Of a stretch of 64,000 bases of DNA, positions 3,648 through 39,241 are shown piece after piece (the first letter of the stretch is position 1; the number at the start of each line of letters is the position of its first letter). Both the position numbers and the translations under genes were made by a program. A model generated the notes under the pieces. The model did not search any database and was not told where the DNA came from. It saw only the letters and a program-made list of their open reading frames with translations. This DNA comes from a virus, in IMG/VR virus record IMGVR_UViG_3300047089_000307, positions 1 through 64,000 of that record. One strand, given 5' to 3'.

Positions 3648-3720
3648 GGGCTGCTGGTGTAATGGCGTAGCACAAGAGCTTCCAAACCTCTTGGTCCGGG
3701 TTCGATCCCTGGGTGGCCTG
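3648..3720 (+). tRNA. tRNA-Trp (CCA)
   Basis: A full cloverleaf is present. The acceptor GGGCTGC pairs with GTGGCCT, the anticodon loop TTCCAAA gives CCA, the T-loop is TTCGATC, and the discriminator is G73 as usual for Trp. One C-C mismatch closes the anticodon stem. Confidence 0.8.
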
Positions 3721-3845
3721 CTGGTTCCCACGCTGCACGACCGGGCTGGACGGAACCGTAACTTGATACCTCAACAGTGATGAGCAAATGCTCAGGGATC
3801 GCGGGAGGGCCTTGTGTCCGTTCGACCGGGTCTGCCTGGGCAGAT

Positions 3846-3919
3846 GGGACCTTAGCTCAGCCAGGGAGAGCACCTGCGTGGCACGCAGGGGGTCGCGGGT
3901 TCAATTCCCGCAGGTTCCA
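3846..3919 (+). tRNA. tRNA-Ala (GGC)
   Basis: The acceptor GGGACCT/AGGTTCC carries the alanine identity pair G3-U70. The anticodon stem CCTGC/GCAGG encloses GTGGCAC (GGC). T-loop TTCAATT, A73. Confidence 0.88.
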
Positions 3920-3923
3920 CTTC

Positions 3924-3995
3924 GGGCCGGTAGCTTAACGGTAGAGCGATTGCCTTGCAAGCAATTAGGCCAGGGTTCGAATCCCTGTTGGTCCA
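3924..3995 (+). tRNA. tRNA-Ala (TGC)
   Basis: Acceptor GGGCCGG/TTGGTCC again has G3-U70. The loop CTTGCAA gives TGC. T-loop TTCGAAT, A73. Confidence 0.88.
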
Positions 3996-4072
3996 CGGCC
4001 GCGGTAGCGAGTTCGACTCTCGTCGCATCCACGCACGGGTGCGTACCTCAACGGATAGAGGACGGCACTTAT
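3996..4072 (+). other. tRNA halves in permuted order (3' half then 5' half)
   Basis: A 3' half (3997-4031: anticodon stem GGCCG, T-arm GCGAG-TTCGACT-CTCGT, acceptor CGCATCC, A73) is followed after 5 nt by a 5' half (4037-4072: acceptor GGGTGCG, a textbook D-arm TA-CCTC...GAGG, anticodon stem CGGCA and loop up to TAT). The two acceptor strands pair 7 of 7 (one G-U), and the anticodon strands pair 4 of 5. The next tRNA starts immediately at 4073. Either a permuted tRNA gene or the remains of a tandem duplication. Confidence 0.6.
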
Positions 4073-4146
4073 CTAGGTATGGCGCAGTTTGGTAGCGCGC
4101 CGGGTTCGGGACTCGGAGGCCGCAGGTTCAAATCCTGCTATCTAGA
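4073..4146 (+). tRNA. tRNA-Pro (CGG)
   Basis: Acceptor CTAGGTA/TATCTAG, D-arm TGGCGCAG...GCGC, anticodon stem CCGGG/CTCGG with loop TTCGGGA (CGG), T-loop TTCAAAT, A73. Confidence 0.88.
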
Positions 4147-4152
4147 CTTTTT

Positions 4153-4227
4153 CGGGTTGTAGCTTAGCTTGGTGAAAGCGCGCGGCTGGGGGCCGCGAGA
4201 GCGCAGGTTCGAATCCTGCCTGCCCGA
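4153..4227 (+). tRNA. tRNA-Pro (GGG)
   Basis: Acceptor CGGGTTG/CTGCCCG (one mismatch), anticodon stem CGCGG/CCGCG with loop CTGGGGG (GGG), T-loop TTCGAAT, A73. Confidence 0.85.
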
Positions 4228-4231
4228 CGAG

Positions 4232-4391
4232 GGAAGCAGGAAGGTGGGCTTAGAAGCAGCCATCCTTTAAAGAGCGCGGTCATGCTGCCTTTTGTCTGAG
4301 GGCGCCAGCGGTAAGAGCTGGCACGCTAGCGGGCGGAAGGGTAAACGGGGAATCGCCCTGGCGTAACAGCACACCTGTTTTCCTGGAGCAC
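4232..4391 (+). ncRNA. structured RNA with a 23S rRNA GTPase-centre-like hairpin
   Basis: Bases about 4240-4277 closely match the conserved core of the L11/thiostrepton-binding region of bacterial 23S rRNA (helix 43 region, E. coli about 1055-1090). The run GGCTTAGAAGCAGCCAT (4247-4263) is identical to the rRNA, and TTTAAAGA follows as in rRNA. The helix 44 loop is not conserved. The segment is probably closed by GGAAGCAGG (4232-) pairing with CCTGTTTTCC (about 4376-4385). A second, weaker resemblance to later 23S sequence is seen near 4341-4362. It sits between tRNAs, not in an rRNA operon. Confidence 0.6.
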
Positions 4392-4401
4392 CGGGAAGTT
4401 A

Positions 4402-4474
4402 CGGATACGAGGGAGACGGATAACCCGCCTGGTCTGGGGCCAGGAAAAACTCAGTTCGACCCTGAGGTATCCGA
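4402..4474 (+). tRNA. tRNA-Pro (TGG) with C33
   Basis: Acceptor CGGATAC/GTATCCG pairs perfectly; anticodon stem CCTGG/CCAGG is perfect and encloses TCTGGGG, so the anticodon is TGG but position 33 is C instead of U. T-loop TTCGACC, A73. Position 8 is G rather than U. Confidence 0.7.
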
Positions 4475-4484
4475 CTGAAGCGGT

Positions 4485-4498
4485 CCCCCGTCAGGGGG
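4485..4498. other. short GC hairpin
   Basis: CCCCC-GTCA-GGGGG followed by TTAAAAA. It may be an RNA processing or weak termination signal within the array. Confidence 0.3.
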
Positions 4499-4505
4499 TT
4501 AAAAA

Positions 4506-4548
4506 CGGGCGTGGCCGAGTGGCGCCGCTGTGAAAAGAACGCCCGCCA
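4506..4548 (+). ncRNA. mini tRNA-like hairpin ending in CCA
   Basis: CGGGCGT (4506-4512) and ACGCCCG (4539-4545) form a perfect 7-bp acceptor-like stem directly followed by CCA. The inside keeps a D-arm-like GGCCGAGTGGC but lacks anticodon and T arms. It may be a deleted tRNA or a small acceptor-like RNA. Confidence 0.35.
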
Positions 4549-4549
4549 T

Positions 4550-4621
4550 GTGCCTTTGGCGTAAGGGGAAACGCGCCTGGTTGAAGCCCAGGGGTTCGCG
4601 GTTCGATTCCGTGGGGGTGCA
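4550..4621 (+). tRNA. tRNA-Phe (GAA)
   Basis: Acceptor GTGCCTT/GGGGTGC (with wobbles), D-stem GCGT/ACGC, anticodon stem CCTGG/CCAGG with loop TTGAAGC (GAA), A73. Position 37 is G instead of the usual A. Confidence 0.8.
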
Positions 4622-4622
4622 C

Positions 4623-4693
4623 GGGGTAGTTGGTTAACGGTAAACCAAGAGCCTTCCAAGCTTTGACTGCGGGTTCGAATCCCGTCTGCCCTT
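4623..4693 (+). tRNA. tRNA-Gly (TCC)
   Basis: Acceptor GGGGTAG/CTGCCCT, D-stem GGTT/AACC, loop CTTCCAA (TCC), T-loop TTCGAAT, T73 as expected for Gly. Confidence 0.88.
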
Positions 4694-4698
4694 CGGTA

Positions 4699-4774
4699 AA
4701 CGCTCGCAGTCAGGATAGGCGCGGTTCTTCGGGATTGCGTAATGGCCTGGCCCACTGGGAGCCAAGCGAGTGTT
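4699..4774 (+). other. unassigned structured segment
   Basis: ACGCTCGC (4699-4706) can pair with GCGAGTGT (about 4767-4774), closing a 60-nt internal region. No tRNA arms can be assigned. Confidence 0.25.
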
Positions 4775-4777
4775 TAT

Positions 4778-4846
4778 GCCGCAGCGCACGGCCTGCGACT
4801 CCCCCTTCGTACGGGGGACGGCCCGGTTCGACCCCGGGTTGCGGCT
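4778..4846 (+). tRNA. tRNA-Thr (CGT)
   Basis: Acceptor GCCGCAG/TTGCGGC, anticodon stem CCCCC/GGGGG with loop TTCGTAC (CGT), T-loop TTCGACC, T73. The D-arm is short (16 nt between acceptor and anticodon stem) and position 8 is C. Confidence 0.65.
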
Positions 4847-4997
4847 CTGCTCGTAAGGTCACCACGCGACTGTCACAGGGAGCGCGGCCCTGAGGGGAAG
4901 CACGGCCGCTGCGAACCCGGGACTTGTTAAGCCATCCACATCACGGTCGTTAGCCGGCTGCCTCCGGGCGTGGCTCTTACACTGGCAAGTCCCATCT
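4847..4997 (+). other. spacer without assignable tRNA
   Basis: About 150 nt containing GC hairpins (for example GCGGCC...GGCCGC near 4885-4910) but no complete cloverleaf or ORF that I can support. Confidence 0.3.
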
Positions 4998-5068
4998 GCG
5001 CTGCAAGCATTGTGGTGATGCAGAGGACTCTTAATCCTCGGAGCGGGGTTCGATCCCCTGGTGGCGCA
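4998..5068 (+). tRNA. tRNA-Lys (CTT)
   Basis: Acceptor GCGCTGC/GTGGCGC, D-stem GCAT/ATGC, anticodon stem GAGGA/TCCTC with loop CTCTTAA (CTT), T-loop TTCGATC, A73. Confidence 0.85.
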
Positions 5069-5069
5069 C

Positions 5070-5142
5070 GCGCGGCTAGTCCAATGGCAGAGGCGCCGGA
5101 CTCAAGATCCGGGCGATCCGGGTTCGAGTCCCGGGCTGCGCA
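5070..5142 (+). tRNA. tRNA with CAA anticodon, short variable loop
   Basis: Acceptor GCGCGGC/GCTGCGC, anticodon stem CCGGA/TCCGG with loop CTCAAGA (CAA, leucine codon UUG), T-loop TTCGAGT, A73. The variable loop is only GCGAT, whereas leucine tRNAs normally have a long arm, so charging with leucine is not assured. Confidence 0.75.
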
Positions 5143-5146
5143 CCGT

Positions 5147-5217
5147 TTCCCTCTCGTTCAATGGCAGGACGCCTGACTCTGAATCAGGCAATTGAGGTTC
5201 GAGTCCTCGGAGGGAAG
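5147..5217 (+). tRNA. tRNA-Gln (CTG)
   Basis: Acceptor TTCCCTC/GAGGGAA with the U1-A72 pair and G73 expected of Gln; stem CCTGA/TCAGG with loop CTCTGAA (CTG). Confidence 0.9.
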
Positions 5218-5222
5218 CTCAT

Positions 5223-5296
5223 GTCCGGGTAGGCAACTGGCAGACCACTCGCCTTGAGGTGGCGTGATGCTGTGGGTTCGAATCCCATCCTGGATA
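5223..5296 (+). tRNA. tRNA-Leu (GAG), shortened variable arm
   Basis: Acceptor GTCCGGG/CCTGGAT, loop TTGAGGT (GAG), T-loop TTCGAAT, A73 with an encoded CCA at 5297-5299. The variable region is much shorter than in cellular leucine tRNAs. Confidence 0.75.
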
Positions 5297-5300
5297 CCAA

Positions 5301-5371
5301 TGCCCTCTCGTTTAACGGCAGGACGCCGGGCTTTGGCCCCGGTAGTCGAGGTTCGAATCCCCGGGGGGCAG
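5301..5371 (+). tRNA. tRNA-Gln (TTG)
   Basis: Acceptor TGCCCTC/GGGGGCA with U1-A72 and G73; anticodon stem CCGGG/CCCGG with loop CTTTGGC (TTG). Confidence 0.88.
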
Positions 5372-5375
5372 CAGT

Positions 5376-5449
5376 GCCGCTTTAGCTCAGATGGCTAGAG
5401 CAGCCGCCTTGTAAGCGGCAGGTCGCCGGTTCGAGGCCGGCAAGCGGCT
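5376..5449 (+). tRNA. tRNA-Thr (TGT)
   Basis: Acceptor GCCGCTT/AAGCGGC, anticodon stem GCCGC/GCGGC with loop CTTGTAA (TGT), T73. All stems are complete. Confidence 0.92.
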
Positions 5450-5453
5450 CCGC

Positions 5454-5526
5454 GCCTGACTAGCTCTAGCGGTAGAGCGTCGCCATGGTAAGGCGAAGGT
5501 CATCGGTTCGAATCCGATGTCAGGCT
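5454..5526 (+). tRNA. tRNA-Thr (GGT)
   Basis: Acceptor GCCTGAC/GTCAGGC, anticodon stem TCGCC/GGCGA with loop ATGGTAA (GGT), T-loop TTCGAAT, T73. Confidence 0.92.
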
Positions 5527-5530
5527 CTTT

Positions 5531-5602
5531 GCAGACGTGGCGCAACGGTAGCGTATTACCTTGCCAAGGTAATGGTTGCGGGTTCGAGTCCCGTCGTCTG
5601 CT
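5531..5602 (+). tRNA. tRNA-Gly (GCC)
   Basis: Acceptor GCAGACG/CGTCTGC, anticodon stem TTACC/GGTAA with loop TTGCCAA (GCC), T73, followed by an encoded CCA (5603-5605). Confidence 0.92.
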
Positions 5603-5606
5603 CCAC

Positions 5607-5691
5607 GCGCGGGTGGTTGGAATTGGCAGACACGCACGGCTCAGACCCGTGTGGCCGCAAGGTCGTGAGGGTTCGAGTCCCTCTTCGCGCA
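5607..5691 (+). tRNA. tRNA-Leu (CAG)
   Basis: Acceptor GCGCGGG/TTCGCGC, anticodon stem CACGG/CCGTG with loop CTCAGAC (CAG), a normal long variable arm, T-loop TTCGAGT, A73. Confidence 0.9.
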
Positions 5692-5747
5692 CTAGGTGAC
5701 CCGGTAAACGTGGCGCTGCCGCGGCAACCGCAATCCGGGCACTCCCT

Positions 5748-5833
5748 GGAAGGCTCGCATAGCTGGCTTATTGCGCTGCCCTGCTAAGGCAGTTCGGATA
5801 ATACCGACGCGGGTTCGAATCCCGCGCCTTCCT
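5748..5833 (+). tRNA. tRNA-Ser (GCT)
   Basis: Acceptor GGAAGGC/GCCTTCC, anticodon stem CTGCC/GGCAG with loop CTGCTAA (GCT), long variable arm, T-loop TTCGAAT. The discriminator is T rather than the usual G. Confidence 0.85.
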
Positions 5834-5891
5834 CTGGATTCGCGTGAGGTACCGAAATGGCGCAAGCCTGTGAAGCGTGAGTCCTTCAAAT

Positions 5892-5975
5892 GGAAGATGA
5901 ACCTGGCAGGAGTCAGGGACCGGCCGGAAACCGGTTCGGCGCGCGAGCGCTGGGATTCGAGTTCTCCGTCTTCCG
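5892..5975 (+). tRNA. tRNA-Ser (GGA) with C33
   Basis: Acceptor GGAAGAT/GTCTTCC and G73; anticodon stem ACCGG/CCGGT is perfect and encloses CCGGAAA, so the anticodon GGA is preceded by C33 instead of U33. Long variable arm present. The upstream 58 nt (5834-5891) hold a weaker tRNA-like fold with a GTG-containing loop that I could not complete. Confidence 0.7.
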
Positions 5976-6113
5976 CGGAGGTAGGCCGGGAAACCCTGAC
6001 AGCGGGGAGGTTGCCTGCCTGCTGCCTTGAACTCCTGGGGAGCGCGACGTACGGCTAACCCCGAATCCCGCCAGGGCACAGGACAAGGGCAACATTTCCT
6101 GTGCCCGATCCCC
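5976..6113 (+). other. spacer with a perfect 10-bp hairpin
   Basis: GGGCACAGGA (6074-6083) pairs perfectly with TCCTGTGCCC (6097-6106) around a 13-nt loop, with no U tract. It may be an RNase processing site. The preceding 98 nt contain GCGGG/CCCGC but no clear T-loop, so no tRNA is called. Confidence 0.4.
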
Positions 6114-6195
6114 GGAAGGTACGCAGCCGGCGCTGCAACTCGCCTCGAAAGCGAGGGCGGGGTAACACCTGGGGGCTCGACACCTCTACCTTCCT
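6114..6195 (+). tRNA. tRNA-Ser (CGA)
   Basis: Acceptor GGAAGGT/ACCTTCC, anticodon stem CTCGC/GCGAG with loop CTCGAAA (CGA), long variable arm. The T-loop is CTCGACA (C54 instead of U54) and the discriminator is T. Confidence 0.72.
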
Positions 6196-6200
6196 CTTAC

Positions 6201-6273
6201 GGGCTCCTCGTCTAATCGGTGAGGACGCGTGTCTGATAAGCACGTAATCGGGGTTCAATTCCCTGGGGGCCTA
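6201..6273 (+). tRNA. tRNA-Ile (GAT)
   Basis: Acceptor GGGCTCC/GGGGCCT, anticodon stem CGTGT/GCACG with loop CTGATAA (GAT), T-loop TTCAATT, A73. Confidence 0.88.
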
Positions 6274-6274
6274 C

Positions 6275-6346
6275 TGGAGCGTCGTTCAATGGTAAGGACG
6301 CGCCTCTTATACGGACGTGACTCGGGTTCGATTCCCGGCGCTCCTA
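6275..6346 (+). tRNA. tRNA-Ile (TAT)
   Basis: Acceptor TGGAGCG/CGCTCCT (first pair unpaired), D-stem GTTC/GGAC, anticodon loop CTTATAC (TAT, codon AUA), T-loop TTCGATT, A73. One mismatch lies in the anticodon stem. Confidence 0.7.
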
Positions 6347-6347
6347 C

Positions 6348-6420
6348 TGGGATATAGCTTAGACGGAAGAGCGGCGGATTCATAACCCGTCAGGCCCGGG
6401 TTCGATCCCCGGTATCCCGA
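6348..6420 (+). tRNA. tRNA with CAT anticodon (elongator Met or Ile2)
   Basis: Acceptor TGGGATA/TATCCCG, D-stem GCTT/GAGC, anticodon loop TTCATAA (CAT), T-loop TTCGATC, A73. It lacks the three G-C pairs of initiators, so it is an elongator methionine tRNA or a lysidine-modified isoleucine tRNA. Confidence 0.8.
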
Positions 6421-6424
6421 CTAT

Positions 6425-6495
6425 GCCTCTTTAGCATAAGGCAGTGCAGCGGGCCTTTACCCCGCGTTGTCAGGGTTCAAGTCCCTGGGGAGGTA
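6425..6495 (+). tRNA. tRNA-Lys (TTT) with C33
   Basis: Acceptor GCCTCTT/GGGAGGT, D-stem GCAT/GTGC, perfect anticodon stem GCGGG/CCCGC with loop CCTTTAC: anticodon TTT, position 33 is C. T-loop TTCAAGT, A73. Confidence 0.72.
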
Positions 6496-6496
6496 C

Positions 6497-6570
6497 TGCG
6501 CGCAGGTGTACCGGATGGTCACGCCGGCCTTCTAAGCCGAGAGGACGGGGTTCGACTCCCCGGCGCGCGA
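6497..6570 (+). tRNA. tRNA-Arg (TCT)
   Basis: Acceptor TGCGCGC/GCGCGCG, anticodon stem CGGC/GCCG with loop CTTCTAA (TCT), T-loop TTCGACT, A73. Position 8 is A. Confidence 0.8.
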
Positions 6571-6575
6571 CTCAT

Positions 6576-6648
6576 GCTCGTGTGGACAAGCGGTGAAGTC
6601 ACCTGCCTCTCAAGCAGGAGATCCCGGGTTCAAATCCCGGTACGAGCA
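6576..6648 (+). tRNA. tRNA-Glu (CTC)
   Basis: Acceptor GCTCGTG/TACGAGC, anticodon stem CCTGC/GCAGG with loop CTCTCAA (CTC), T-loop TTCAAAT, A73. Confidence 0.9.
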
Positions 6649-6653
6649 CGTTT

Positions 6654-6744
6654 CCAGGGAAGCGCACAGTCCGGACTGTGCTAGCGGTTCTGGCCGATCA
6701 GGAACGTATGCCGGGCGGTTCGATTCCGTCGCCGCGTTCCCTGG
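6654..6744 (+). ncRNA. tRNA-like structured RNA
   Basis: CCAGGGAA (from 6654) pairs with TTCCCTGG (6737-6744), longer than a normal acceptor. A T-arm (GGCGG-TTCGATT-CCGTC, 6714-6730) is present. The D/anticodon region is replaced by the perfect 18-bp palindrome GCACAGTCCGGACTGTGC (about 6664-6681). No anticodon can be assigned. Confidence 0.4.
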
Positions 6745-6752
6745 ATTCATGA

Positions 6753-6823
6753 CGTCCTGTCGATCATGGGTAGGTCCCGGTCCTTTCAAGGCCGAGAACA
6801 GGGTTCGAGTCCCTGTAGGACGA
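6753..6823 (+). tRNA. tRNA-Glu (TTC)
   Basis: Acceptor CGTCCTG/TAGGACG, anticodon stem CGGTC/GGCCG with loop CTTTCAA (TTC), T-loop TTCGAGT, A73. Confidence 0.85.
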
Positions 6824-6824
6824 C

Positions 6825-6899
6825 CGCGGAGTAGGGGAGCTCGGTGTCCCCGCTGGGCTCATAACCCAGAGATCGCGGGTTCAAATCCCGCCTCCGCTA
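6825..6899 (+). tRNA. initiator tRNA-fMet (CAT)
   Basis: The anticodon stem CTGGG/CCCAG has the three consecutive G-C pairs of initiators with loop CTCATAA. Position 1 (C) does not pair with position 72 (T), the other initiator hallmark. T-loop TTCAAAT, A73 and an encoded CCA (6900-6902). Confidence 0.92.
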
Positions 6900-6903
6900 C
6901 CAA

Positions 6904-6974
6904 TCTCCTATCGTTTAATGGGAGGACGAGCGGCCGTTAACCGCTTAATTCTGGTTCGAGTCCAGGTGGGAGAG
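6904..6974 (+). tRNA. tRNA-Asn (GTT) with C33
   Basis: Acceptor TCTCCTA/TGGGAGA and G73 as expected for Asn. The perfect anticodon stem AGCGG/CCGCT encloses CCGTTAA: anticodon GTT with C at position 33. Confidence 0.75.
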
Positions 6975-6975
6975 C

Positions 6976-7045
6976 GGAAGCAGGAAGGGAGTACGCCTTC
7001 GCCAGGGAAGGTCTGGCACGAGAGAAGAGCCGTCCTGCTTCACCA
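6976..7045 (+). ncRNA. tRNA-like RNA closed by a 9-bp stem and ending in ACCA
   Basis: GAAGCAGGA (6977-6985) pairs perfectly with TCCTGCTTC (7033-7041), followed by ACCA. An internal hairpin GCCAG/CTGGC has a 7-nt loop GGAAGGT. There is no T-loop. The 5' sequence GGAAGCAGGAAGG is the same as the start of the 23S-like RNA at 4232. Confidence 0.4.
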
Positions 7046-7047
7046 AT

Positions 7048-7122
7048 GGGGCTATAACTCAGCCTGGTTAGAGTGCCACCTTGTCACGGTGGAAGCCGCC
7101 GGTTCAAATCCGGTTAGTCCCG
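7048..7122 (+). tRNA. tRNA-Asp (GTC)
   Basis: Acceptor GGGGCTA/TAGTCCC, anticodon stem CCACC/GGTGG with loop TTGTCAC (GTC), T-loop TTCAAAT, G73 as expected. Confidence 0.92.
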
Positions 7123-7123
7123 C

Positions 7124-7195
7124 GCAGCCATGGTGAAATGGATATCATGACAGGCTACGAACCTGTCGGTCTGGGTTCGACTCCCGGTGGCTGTA
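7124..7195 (+). tRNA. tRNA-Arg (ACG)
   Basis: Acceptor GCAGCCA/TGGCTGT, anticodon stem ACAGG/CCTGT with loop CTACGAA (ACG), A73 and encoded CCA (7196-7198). Confidence 0.92.
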
Positions 7196-7244
7196 CCAGC
7201 GCTAACTCCGGATGGCGCTATAGAAAACGTTCCGGGGCGAGCAA

Positions 7245-7316
7245 GCCCACTTAGCTCAGAGGCAGAGCGGCTGTCCTACAAACAGCGGGCCGGGATTTCG
7301 AAATTCTCAGTGGGTA
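7245..7316 (+). tRNA. tRNA-Val (TAC) with C33
   Basis: Acceptor GCCCACT/AGTGGGT, D-stem GCTC/GAGC, perfect anticodon stem GCTGT/ACAGC with loop CCTACAA: anticodon TAC, C33. The T-stem is weak (one mismatch), A73. Confidence 0.72.
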
Positions 7317-7336
7317 CTGCGCCGGAAGGCGCTCAT

Positions 7337-7420
7337 GGCGGCGGAAGCAGGATGGCATTATGCGTCAGGTTGTGACCCTGTGTCCGCAAGGATTCGCGGG
7401 TTCAAATCCCGTTCGTCGCC
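7337..7420 (+). tRNA. tRNA-His (GTG) with long variable arm
   Basis: An extra G at -1 pairs with C73, the histidine identity mark, extending GCGGCGG/TCGTCGC. The anticodon loop is TTGTGAC (GTG). The variable region includes TCC-GCAA-GGA, a class II-like arm not expected for histidine. T-loop TTCAAAT. Confidence 0.8.
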
Positions 7421-7540
7421 CGTAAGCCGGGGTTGAGGGCATCCTCGTGACGGCAAGCCGGACTCAGGCAGGCTCCCGGCCCCGCAAATCGCGTTCAGCC
7501 GTGACCTGCCGGGTTCAATGGCCGCGGAAACCCTCTTTAC
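7421..7540 (+). other. spacer without assignable tRNA
   Basis: About 120 GC-rich nt with short hairpins (GGGTT/AACCC near 7510-7532). No complete tRNA or ORF is supported. Confidence 0.3.
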
Positions 7541-7622
7541 TGACGAGTATGCAAGTGGTTCAAAGCATCCGGCCTGTAAATCCGGCGCCTCGGCTTCGTG
7601 GGTTCGAATCCCTCCTCGTCAA
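7541..7622 (+). tRNA. tRNA-Tyr (GTA)
   Basis: Acceptor TGACGAG/CTCGTCA pairs perfectly, anticodon loop CTGTAAA (GTA), long variable arm, T-loop TTCGAAT, A73. Confidence 0.85.
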
Positions 7623-7624
7623 CC

Positions 7625-7711
7625 GTGCCCCTACCCTGGATTGGTCTCCGGCGCTTGACGGCGTGCACGCTGCCGACGCTAGTGAGTATCCGTTCGAATC
7701 GGACAGGGGCT
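7625..7711 (+). other. degenerate class II tRNA-like segment
   Basis: TGCCCC near 7626 can pair with GGGGC at 7706-7710 and a T-arm TCCG-TTCGAAT-CGGA is present. The anticodon arm is ambiguous (a TTGA-containing loop might be serine TGA). Confidence 0.35.
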
Positions 7712-7719
7712 CGATACTT

Positions 7720-7788
7720 ATCCTTGGCAGCGGACCTGCTGCCCTCCCTCCGAAGGAGAGTTACCCGGTTCGACTCCGGGCAGGGATA
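7720..7788 (+). tRNA. tRNA-Arg (CCG)
   Basis: Acceptor ATCCTTG/CAGGGAT, anticodon stem with loop CTCCGAA (CCG), T-stem CCCGG/CCGGG with TTCGACT, A73. The D-arm is short. Confidence 0.65.
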
Positions 7789-7836
7789 CGAGGGGCCTCC
7801 CCGGGGCGCTGATGACAAAGAAGTACCGGGGATCAT

Positions 7837-7909
7837 GTCGCGTTACTCTCCGGTGAGGGGGCCTGGCTGCAACCCAGGCTGACGTCCGGTTCGACCCCGG
7901 AACGCGACT
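7837..7909 (+). tRNA. tRNA-Cys (GCA)
   Basis: Acceptor GTCGCGT/ACGCGAC, anticodon stem CCTGG/CCAGG with loop CTGCAAC (GCA), T73 as expected for Cys. Confidence 0.9.
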
Positions 7910-7916
7910 CTGCGCC

Positions 7917-7982
7917 CCCGCCGGCGGATTCGGTCCAGGGTTTCCTAAACCCGGGTGCCTGGTTCGACTCCAGGCGGCGGCA
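7917..7982 (+). tRNA. tRNA-Arg (CCT), short D-arm
   Basis: Acceptor CCCGCCG/CGGCGGC with an unpaired first position, anticodon loop TTCCTAA (CCT), T-stem CCTGG/CCAGG, A73 and an encoded CCA (7983-7985). Only 66 nt because the D-arm is reduced. Confidence 0.65.
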
Positions 7983-8004
7983 CCAGTTTGCTCATCACTG
8001 CTGA

Positions 8005-36430: not shown

Positions 36431-37481
36431 TGGTGGGTCAGGCTGCATGTACTACCGGATCAAGGTCCCCCTGGAGGAGCTGGCCCGGCACGGTCATGAG
36501 GTGACCTTCCGCTCCGGCGGGAATGAGGAGGGTAACCGGCCCATCACCCTGGCGGAGATGGCCGAGCATGACGTGGTGATCGGGCAGCGGTTCAATCACT
36601 ACGCGGGCATGGGCACCTGGCGCCGCGCCCGCGGGCCGTCCAGCCGGCTGGTCTACGAGATTGATGACGACGTCTTCTCCGTGACCCCGGTCAACTGGCA
36701 GGCGTACCACGTCTACAGCCAGCCGGAGGTCCGCGAGGCTGTCATGCACCAGGCCCAGGTATCGGACCTGGTGACCGTGACCACGGAGCACCTGGCCGCG
36801 GTGATGCGCGAGCACACCGGCAACGGCAACGTCCTGGCGCTGCCGAACTGCGTCCCCGGCTGGGTGCTGGACATGGAGCGCAGGCCCCGGCAGCGCCCGG
36901 CGATCGGCTGGGCGGGCGGCGCCAGCCACGGCAGCGACGTCGGGCTGCTCGTCAGCCCCGTGCGCCGGTTCCTGAAGCGGTTCCCCGGCTGGGACTTCCA
37001 GCTTGGCGGCACGGACTTCCGGGAGACCTTCGCCCGGGAGGGGTCGCCGCGCGGGAGGCTGCTGCACGCCCGGTGGGTGCCGGTCTGCGAGGACGCGCGG
37101 GGCTATTACGAGACCGCGGACTTCGACATCGGCCTGGCCCCGCTGGCGGGAACCCCGTTTGACCTGTCGAAGTCCTGCGTCAAGGTACTGGAGTACGCGG
37201 CCCGGGGCATTCCCTCGATCGCCAGTGACTGCGAGGTTTACCGGTCGTTCATCCGCCATGGCGAGAACGGCTTCCTGGTGAAGAGGGACCATGAGTGGCT
37301 GAAGTACGCATCCGAGCTGGCCAGCGACGGGGGCCTGCGGCTGGCGATGGGCCAGGCAGCGCGGGACACGGCGCGGGAGTGGACGATCGAGGCGAATTAC
37401 CACCTATGGGAGCAGGCGTACCGGAGCCTGTTTAAGGTCAAGTCTCTTAGCGTATTATGGCCTTCGTGCGCGAGCCAGTAG
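36408..37481 (+). CDS. glycosyltransferase (GT4/GT-B type)
   Basis: This 357-aa GTG-started protein has a GT-B layout: an N-terminal domain with MYYRIKVPLEELARHGHEVT and LVYEIDDDVFSV, a linker, then AIGWAGGASHGSDVG, DFDIGLAPLAGTPFDLSKSC and CVKVLEYAARGIPSIASDCE (the nucleotide-sugar binding E-x7-E-like region), ending in GENGFLV. It overlaps the nuclease gene by 25 nt. Confidence 0.85.
   Translation: MRIFAGHDGGSGCMYYRIKVPLEELARHGHEVTFRSGGNEEGNRPITLAEMAEHDVVIGQRFNHYAGMGTWRRARGPSSRLVYEIDDDVFSVTPVNWQAYHVYSQPEVREAVMHQAQVSDLVTVTTEHLAAVMREHTGNGNVLALPNCVPGWVLDMERRPRQRPAIGWAGGASHGSDVGLLVSPVRRFLKRFPGWDFQLGGTDFRETFAREGSPRGRLLHARWVPVCEDARGYYETADFDIGLAPLAGTPFDLSKSCVKVLEYAARGIPSIASDCEVYRSFIRHGENGFLVKRDHEWLKYASELASDGGLRLAMGQAARDTAREWTIEANYHLWEQAYRSLFKVKSLSVLWPSCASQ
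37442..37458 (+). promoter_or_regulatory. phage promoter element at the nuclease start
   Basis: GTCTCTTAGCGTATTAT matches the recurring element. Its -10-like TATTAT (37453-37458) overlaps the annotated ATG and lies 7 nt before a GTG (37466) in the same frame, so transcripts from here would begin translation at the GTG. Confidence 0.6.
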
Positions 37482-39241
37482 CCAGGCAGTACCGTTACCG
37501 GGCCTATCCCGATGAGGAGCAGGCTGACCTCCTGGACTTCTACGCAGCGGGCGCCCGCGCGTTCTGGAATAAGAACGTCGCGTGGCTGCGCGCCATGGAG
37601 GGAAGTGAGGGGCATGACGACCTTGGCGCTGGCCGCCAGCTGAGCGAGGCTTACGCTTACCTCGCCAGCGTGCCCGGCATCGCTGAGGCCCTGAAGAGCA
37701 GGAAGCATCCGGAGCATGAGCGCTGGACGGCCTTCCTGCGAAAGGCAGAAAGGCCGCGCCAGCCCGGCTGGCATGCGTGGACGCGGCATTACGGGGGTGC
37801 CAGGCTCCGCGGGCAGCTGAGCGGGAACTTCTCTGCCGCCGTGCACGCTGCGCGGGAGAGCGGGATGACGTTCTGGCACGGGGGCGAGCAGCACCCGGTC
37901 TCGGCGGTCCCGTCGAAGGTCCTGCACGGGGCGTGCGGGAGCAAGGGCCAGCTCAAGGCCGCCGTGGACGCTGTCATGAAGAAGCGCGCCGCTGGCAAGC
38001 GCGCAGAGCTGCCCCGCTGGCGTGCCCGGCATGAGAGCCAGAACCTGCGCTGGCAAGTCCAGGATGGTCCCCGGAACGCGACCCGGGAGTCCCTGGTGAC
38101 GGTAACGGGCACGCGGCACGCCACCGTGCCGCTGGTAACGACGCGCGGGCACGAGGGTAATAAGAGCCTGCGCATCCGCTATCATCGCGAGCTCCCCGCG
38201 GACGCCTCAGTGTCCTTCATGCAGGTGACCTGGAATCCGGGGACCGGCTGCTACTTCGTGACGCTCACGCTGACGACCGCGCAGTACGAGGTTCCGGCCA
38301 CGACGGGCATGGCCGGCATCGACCGGGGCATCGTAAAGGCTGCTGTCACTTCGGACGGGGAGTACTACGATTCTCCGGGACTGAACCAGGGGCGCCGTCG
38401 CCGCGAGCTCCTGCTCCAGCAGTCCCTTGACTGGAAGCGCCGCGTGCTGCCGTGCAAGGGCCGGTGCGCGCACGAGCCAGGGCAGTGCTGGCGCACGTCA
38501 CTACGGTATGCACGGGTCGTGACGGCCCGGCAGCGGCTCCTGGACGCCCAGGAGGACCTCATCGATGACGGGGCGCACAAATTCTCCCGGGCTATCGCCC
38601 GCCGGTACGCGGTCGTCGTGCTTGAGGACCTGGCGAACCTGATGACGGCGTCCACGGCGAAGGGCACGGTAGCCGCCCCCGGCGTGAGCGTGCGCGCCGC
38701 CGCCGGACGCAACCGGGAGGTACGCGCGGCTAACTGGGGGCGCATTGAGCAGTACCTGGGGTATAAGGCAGGGCAGCTCCTCGGCGTCCCGGCGCCGTAT
38801 ACGTCGCGGACATGCCCGCGATGCGGGTATGTTAGCGTCATGAACCGGCCCTCCCAGGCGGAGTTCCGGTGCGGGTCCTGCGGACTCAGCGGCAACGCTG
38901 ACGTGATCGCGGCCGGCAATATCGTTAATGCAGGGAAAACCGCCCGCGCGCTGCGGGATAACGGGCAGGGATCGTCCTCCGGGATTAACCGGGGGCCTGG
39001 CGCTAGCCGGGAGCCTGCCAACACTCACAACTTTACAGTGGCCCCGGGCGAGCGCTGCGGTAGTGCGCCCGATCCCGGTCAGCGCTCGCAGGCAGGTGAG
39101 CAGCCAGGAATCGTTACCGAGCTCGACGGAACGGTGATCCCGGAGACGTGGGGCATCCCCGGTGCTCGCATCCGCGGGGGAAACCGCAGGTCACGACGGG
39201 CGAAAAAGCCGAGCGGTGGCAACACTGCCGGAGCCGGGTGA
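37457..39241 (+). CDS. Cas12/TnpB-like RuvC nuclease, CRISPR-associated
   Basis: 594 aa from ATG 37457 (591 from the likelier leaderless GTG 37466). The N-terminus RQYRYRAYPDEEQADLLDFY is OrfB/TnpB-like. A middle part leads to PRWRARHESQNLRWQ. The RuvC parts are complete: Asp289 (GIDRG), Glu390 (VVLEDLANL), and Asp482 (GNADVIAAGNIVNAG), with a zinc ribbon at Cys453, 456, 472 and 475 (CPRC...CGSC). A low-complexity tail of about 100 residues follows, and the stop lies inside the first CRISPR repeat. TnpB proteins are usually about 400 aa and no TnpA is nearby, so a compact type V (V-U like) effector is the best call. An intact triad predicts RNA-guided DNA cleavage. Confidence 0.85.
   Translation: MAFVREPVARQYRYRAYPDEEQADLLDFYAAGARAFWNKNVAWLRAMEGSEGHDDLGAGRQLSEAYAYLASVPGIAEALKSRKHPEHERWTAFLRKAERPRQPGWHAWTRHYGGARLRGQLSGNFSAAVHAARESGMTFWHGGEQHPVSAVPSKVLHGACGSKGQLKAAVDAVMKKRAAGKRAELPRWRARHESQNLRWQVQDGPRNATRESLVTVTGTRHATVPLVTTRGHEGNKSLRIRYHRELPADASVSFMQVTWNPGTGCYFVTLTLTTAQYEVPATTGMAGIDRGIVKAAVTSDGEYYDSPGLNQGRRRRELLLQQSLDWKRRVLPCKGRCAHEPGQCWRTSLRYARVVTARQRLLDAQEDLIDDGAHKFSRAIARRYAVVVLEDLANLMTASTAKGTVAAPGVSVRAAAGRNREVRAANWGRIEQYLGYKAGQLLGVPAPYTSRTCPRCGYVSVMNRPSQAEFRCGSCGLSGNADVIAAGNIVNAGKTARALRDNGQGSSSGINRGPGASREPANTHNFTVAPGERCGSAPDPGQRSQAGEQPGIVTELDGTVIPETWGIPGARIRGGNRRSRRAKKPSGGNTAGAG

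Follow-up and report, generated by a model that had tools for sequence, protein, structure and literature searches.

The stretch of viral DNA analysed here, hereafter the window, comprises 64,000 nucleotides (positions 1 to 64,000 of the IMG/VR record IMGVR_UViG_3300047089_000307). The record behind it is 158,651 bases long and its genes include those of a portal protein and of a tail length tape measure protein; no RelA/SpoT, uL11 or MazG genes were found within these 158,651 bases. Near its start, the window carries an array in which ARAGORN finds 33 tRNA genes (Table 1). Between tRNA-Pro(GGG) at 4153-4228 and the next tRNA found downstream, Phe at 4550, lies an element encoding a complete copy of the GTPase-associated centre (GAC) of 23S rRNA, that is helices h42, h43 and h44 or E. 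coli positions 1051-1108. Several other tRNA-like stretches receive no ARAGORN call (3992-4070, 4396-4475, 6114-6196 and 7338-7420), the last one being called by Rfam although ARAGORN passes over it. A weak match to the Y RNA-like YrlA is seen at 3999-4068 (31.6 bits vs 69), and a TnpB-like protein with Cas12f1-like TNB and OrfB_IS605 matches is encoded at 37457-39241.

Table 1. Features of the GAC-like element and of the tRNA array that contains it (window positions).
Feature	Positions	Strand	Basis or pairing
Phage tRNA array	3648-7985	+	33 tRNA genes by ARAGORN
h42-like closing stem, 5' strand GGGAAGCAGG	4231-4240	+	10 uninterrupted pairs with 4374-4383
h43 stem-loop, E. coli 1057-1081	4242-4266	+	23S sequence match; 1058-1080 covariation
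h43 loop UUAGAAGCA	4250-4258	+	within h43 stem-loop
Tertiary core TTAAAGAGC, E. coli 1082-1090, including lone pair 1082-1086 and A1088	4267-4275	+	
Helix P (closes the insert), 5' strand GCGG	4276-4279	+	pairs with 4353-4356
Variable accessory insert, predicted mostly helical	4280-4352	+	fold prediction of the window
Helix P, 3' strand TCGC	4353-4356	+	pairs with 4276-4279
3' module CCTGGCGTAACAGCACAC	4357-4374	+	match to the family 3' pattern
h44 hairpin GC-GUAACA-GC, E. coli 1091-1100	4361-4370	+	inside the 3' module
h42-like closing stem, 3' strand CCTGTTTTCC	4374-4383	+	pairs with 4231-4240

A sequence-only reading of this DNA had recognized helix 43 outside any rRNA gene, and both points are borne out. 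The stretch 4247-4273 (GGCTTAGAAGCAGCCATCCTTTAAAGA) matches h43 of 23S rRNA and the bases after it, and the Rfam LSU model matches 4238-4290 with 29.8 bits and an E value of 5e-6 (gathering score 50); the locus lies between tRNA-Pro and the later part of the tRNA array. The LSU match is partial, covering positions 1180-1233 of 2987, and the element failed as a member of LSU rRNA. At gathering level, Rfam 15 returned no family other than tRNA for the window; eight further loci, searched with permissive settings, gave tRNA and sub-threshold LSU matches only. The same reading held that the loop of h44 had been lost. This is wrong, as the loop is kept beyond an insert of about 83 nt (4274-4356), which falls between positions 1090 and 1091 and separates h43 from h44. 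The 3' module downstream of the insert occurs once in the window vs 0.09 matches expected by chance, and its counterpart in the phage members, TTTGGCGTAAYAGCACAC, is the equivalent of E. coli 1091-1104. Since the sequences ahead of h43 and behind this module pair into an h42-like stem, the window contains the whole GAC, with E. coli position 1072 at 4257. The proposal of a GAC mimic therefore stands, with its extent corrected to 4231-4383 so as to take in the 10-bp h42-like stem and the insert.

Relatives were collected from IMG/VR with a degenerate 5' pattern excluding rRNA (62 stretches) and with two 3' patterns (at least 120 and 88 viral stretches). Once duplicates were collapsed, at least 171 distinct elements remained from viral contigs and phage isolates; base counts at positions inside the search patterns are biased by this mode of collection. 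The objection that the segment might be a scar absent from relatives, which the sequence-only reading had itself raised, thus falls. Blastn against phage records, apart from genuine rRNA contaminants that were discarded, retrieved the same 36-37 bases, again intergenic, in pf16, Aeromonas 4_4572, Xanthomonas XacN1 and others, and in Pseudomonas phage UNO-G1W1 the h43 match is 37/37 bases (100%, E 1e-9, intergenic). The isolates that carry the element infect Pseudomonas, Xanthomonas, Aeromonas, Cronobacter, Pectobacterium, Erwinia, Serratia and Acinetobacter, and belong to the genera Otagovirus, Chakrabartyvirus, Lahexavirus, Mimasvirus, Eneladusvirus and Metrivirus. Degenerate members are found in the half-megabase Prevotella phages Lak-A1 and Lak-B2 (loci L262 and L263, around 2000), in which both loops have diverged and what is retained is the core CATCATTTAAAGAGT together with the closing and h43 stems. 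Two phages have tandem copies: Pseudomonas phage Astolliot, 337 bases apart (L268, 672 and 1009), one copy with U and a U-A triple and the other with C and C-G, and Milchi, about 340 bases apart (L006, 3672 and 4009).

The element is phage-specific and nearly absent from cellular genomes. Among those of 84,980 species, the 5' pattern gave five matches, namely four real members and one rRNA; the four members sit in genomes named Clostridiaceae, Pricia and delta-proteobacteria, three of which are MAGs. A match in Paenibacillus Pd_22F, the locus L174 and the matches annotated as 23S were left out of the family as ordinary rRNA. In the open-access literature we found no paper on a phage RNA of such a GAC/L11 kind, and the window element belongs to a family of phage RNAs not described before.

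The fold of this family was analyzed by covariation. In 49 distinct elements chosen solely by short 5' and 3' patterns, the h42 stem covaries in the rRNA register, G1055-C1104, with 10.0 of 14 pairs formed in that register vs 6.1-6.7 at other offsets. Helix P, which closes the insert, has standard pairs in 49, 49 and 48 of the 49, shuffles (a control that ignores relatedness) averaging 28, 34 and 23. The larger set numbers 117 distinct elements, and its pair counts were made on the 110 ungapped ones. There, the first three pairs of helix P are standard in 110, 109 and 103 cases (shuffle means 67, 65 and 49), and pair 1057-1081 switches in concert from A-U to C-G. Pair 1058-1080 is standard in 110/110 (G-C 42, U-A 35, A-U 27, C-G 3, wobble 3; shuffle mean 47) as well as in 145/145 of a wider set. 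The lone pair 1082-1086 is U-A in 71, C-G in 22 and A-U in 14, so that 107/110 are standard vs a shuffle mean of 68 and maximum of 77; in the wider set the figure is 139/145. An extra hairpin is observed at position 1078 in the h43 of several elements (L122, L123, L125, L138, L144, L145, L161, L164 and others).

The base triple 1072-(1092-1099) was examined in a search that left position 1072 free. C goes with C-G in 113/113 elements and U with U-A in 57/58, hence 170/171 obey the rule. The exchange has recurred, since L212/L224 and GAP32 are 88% identical and differ by the whole triple, and since the nearest neighbour of 20 of the 58 U-A elements has C-G; these repeated switches are independent of relatedness. 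Conn, Gutell and Draper reportedly described the same coordinated exchange for rRNA in 1998. For rRNA, work on the (1092/1099)1072 exchange has also addressed how it affects the binding of uL11. The h42, h43 and h44 register, the lone pair, the triple, U1060 and A1088 all place the elements in the GAC fold. Altogether, this shows that both the secondary and the tertiary structure of the GAC are under selection across many unrelated phages, and strongly supports a GAC mimic that is neither an rRNA operon nor a scar. There is virtually no chance that we are looking at a functionless recombination scar or a captured fragment of host rRNA: the sequence does originate in 23S rRNA, but covariation already refutes this idea, with compensatory changes in stems, lone pair and triple across at least 171 sequences, and the elements have in common an insertion site and a TTTGG linker absent from rRNA.

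The insert ranges from 26 to 367 nt across the family and is modestly more stable than its shuffles (mean z -0.95, 168 inserts). Several classes exist with internal motifs of their own, e.g. GGCACCCCGUAACUGGUAAGG, or GCGAAAUGC...GAUGUGC. Another motif, GUGCGAAAUGCUAA...UUAGUGAUGUGC, recurs in L014, L041, L051, L085, L103, L129, L172 and L196; it resembles a conserved internal loop, and its carriers differ in the GAC triple.

As for the genomic context, 84 of the 117 elements have a tRNA in the same locus, and the nearest one is on the same strand in 84/84. A tRNA lies within 20 nt of 46/117 elements vs 18% of random positions in the same loci. No conserved neighbouring protein family was found, any one being common to at most 4 loci, so that the RNA, to judge by its surroundings, works on its own. 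In locus L131, a DUF7788/DUF2828 protein is encoded near the element (754-2241); it looks like a putative RNA-binding protein of the Ro60/TROVE type and has relatives in 3 loci.

Which ligand could such an RNA have? Base conservation was assessed on 134 elements with a loosely constrained 5' side, found without use of A1067 or AANGAGT. The three-way core is best kept (U1060 134/134, G1059 132/134, A1077 131/134, AANGAGT 130/134), and the loop tips are more variable (A1067 100/134, G1068 99/134, A1070 97/134). A1088 is present in 110/110, a count whose filter required it, the loop base A1095 in 107/110, and G1071 is also well kept. The core is the part gripped by the C-terminal domain of uL11 in the ribosome; it is here, through this domain, that the 58-nt GAC binds uL11 with high affinity. 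A1067 is the thiostrepton contact base and also the best known factor-contact base. With the core kept and the loop tips varying, uL11 is favoured as the ligand over EF-G or thiostrepton. The functions first suggested included a uL11 decoy, damping of the stringent response and protection against a thiopeptide. Of these, sequestration of uL11 is still the best guess, and protection against thiostrepton is disfavoured by the change of A1067 in about a quarter of the elements; a further point against it is that most isolate carriers infect Gram-negative hosts. We also considered that position 1067 could track the host. This was rejected, as Acinetobacter phage ME3 has G1067 vs A1067 in the 23S gene of an Acinetobacter phage assembly record.

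We propose that the most likely mechanism is a trans-acting phage RNA which holds uL11 and whose variable insert is an accessory domain, and from the sequences we would give it about an even chance. The RNA would be transcribed together with the tRNAs, fold like the 58-nt rRNA domain and bind uL11 in the infected cell. It could then prevent uL11 from joining new ribosomes or anchor it at some other place, and the insert could supply a phage-specific function or partner, two steps of which we are less confident. One might guess that, with uL11 withdrawn during infection, RelA would be less strongly activated and factor-dependent steps would change. On the other hand, free uL11 is expected to be scarce late in infection. 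The hairpin at position 1078 of several elements would have to be accepted by a protein ligand, which counts against uL11, as do the absent L10 site of h42 and the diverged loops of the Lak phages. A wider and rather doubtful extension is that large phages of several bacterial phyla capture uL11 so as to uncouple RelA from the ribosome, as a stringent-response counter-measure in which the insert would be a second effector.

Another hypothesis, which we consider unlikely, is a decoy whose target is a translation factor or a stress sensor in contact with the GAC, be it EF-G, RelA or another translational GTPase, uL11 being then a passenger or not bound at all. EF-G is reported to bind GAC oligomers, and the good conservation of A1095 and G1071 would fit such a ligand. 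However, A1067 is replaced in 34/134 elements, and the G1067 of ME3 departs from the 23S base quoted above. Distinctly unlikely as well is that the GAC fold has been reused as a compact scaffold joining h42 to the insert, its ribosomal likeness having no functional meaning. The size and variety of the inserts could be understood in this way, and so could the Lak phages, which keep the core and lose the loops; yet U1060, A1077, AANGA and GUA are almost fixed beyond the needs of pairing, and a bare scaffold does not need the rRNA-identical loops of most elements. One could finally imagine, by analogy and with quite low probability, a target decoy against a defence system of the host by which the ribosomal GAC is attacked or modified. 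In a similar way, tRNAs encoded by phages take the place of those that anticodon nucleases have cut, and the arrays are thought to counter tRNA-cutting defences. The placement of the elements in tRNA arrays and the variation of both position 1067 and the lone pair would agree with this idea. Against it, no anti-phage effector cleaving the GAC is known to us, and with no uL11 bound, the free RNA might not serve as a substrate.

To our knowledge, this would be the first known case of a trans-acting RNA that mimics one of the functional domains of the large ribosomal subunit. A GAC-mimic RNA is widespread in tRNA-rich phages. The role of non-tRNA genes in phage tRNA arrays is a long-open question, and it becomes directly testable here, as we know what the original site in rRNA binds. 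Moreover, these natural variants add to the covariation on record for a textbook RNA tertiary structure, with a lone pair that varies where sampled rRNA does not.

A parallel can be drawn with the RNA anti-CRISPRs (Racr), in which a phage RNA imitates a host RNA and captures a host protein; this is a works-like analogy only, since RNA, target and structure all differ from the GAC mimic. Ribosomal protein leader RNAs, e.g. the L10 leader, likewise copy an r-protein site outside the ribosome. The leaders, however, are cis-regulators upstream of r-protein genes, whereas the phage RNA has no conserved neighbour gene. Small stable or abundant RNAs beside tRNA genes are also produced by virulent phages, as in band C/D of T4 and sRNA1/2 of PAK_P3 (PMC4933390). 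In PAK_P3, two late sRNAs are strongly expressed and one of them lies between tRNAs (PMC4933390), so such intergenic regions can be transcribed. Neither T4 band C/D (rnaC/rnaD) nor PAK_P3 sRNA1/2 has a GAC module, and they were ruled out as family members.

The closest comparison remains the GAC of 23S rRNA itself, with which the phage RNA shares h42, h43 and h44, the loops, U1060, A1088, the lone pair 1082-1086 and the triple 1072-(1092-1099). It differs in being a stand-alone gene, in its 26-367 nt insert at 1090/1091 and in having U-A at pair 1101. The insertion site and the TTTG(G) linker are common to the phage elements, and the linker is absent from rRNA. The L10-binding kink-turn below G1055-C1104 is absent from the phage RNA, where h42 is a covarying regular helix. 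In the 42 bacterial genomes from three phyla that yielded a matching rRNA site, with search patterns that fix many other bases, 1082-1086 is always U-A and 1080 is A or C. The variable 1082-1086 and 1080, the linker, the insert and the missing kink-turn mark the phage elements as an old independent lineage and not as recent captures.
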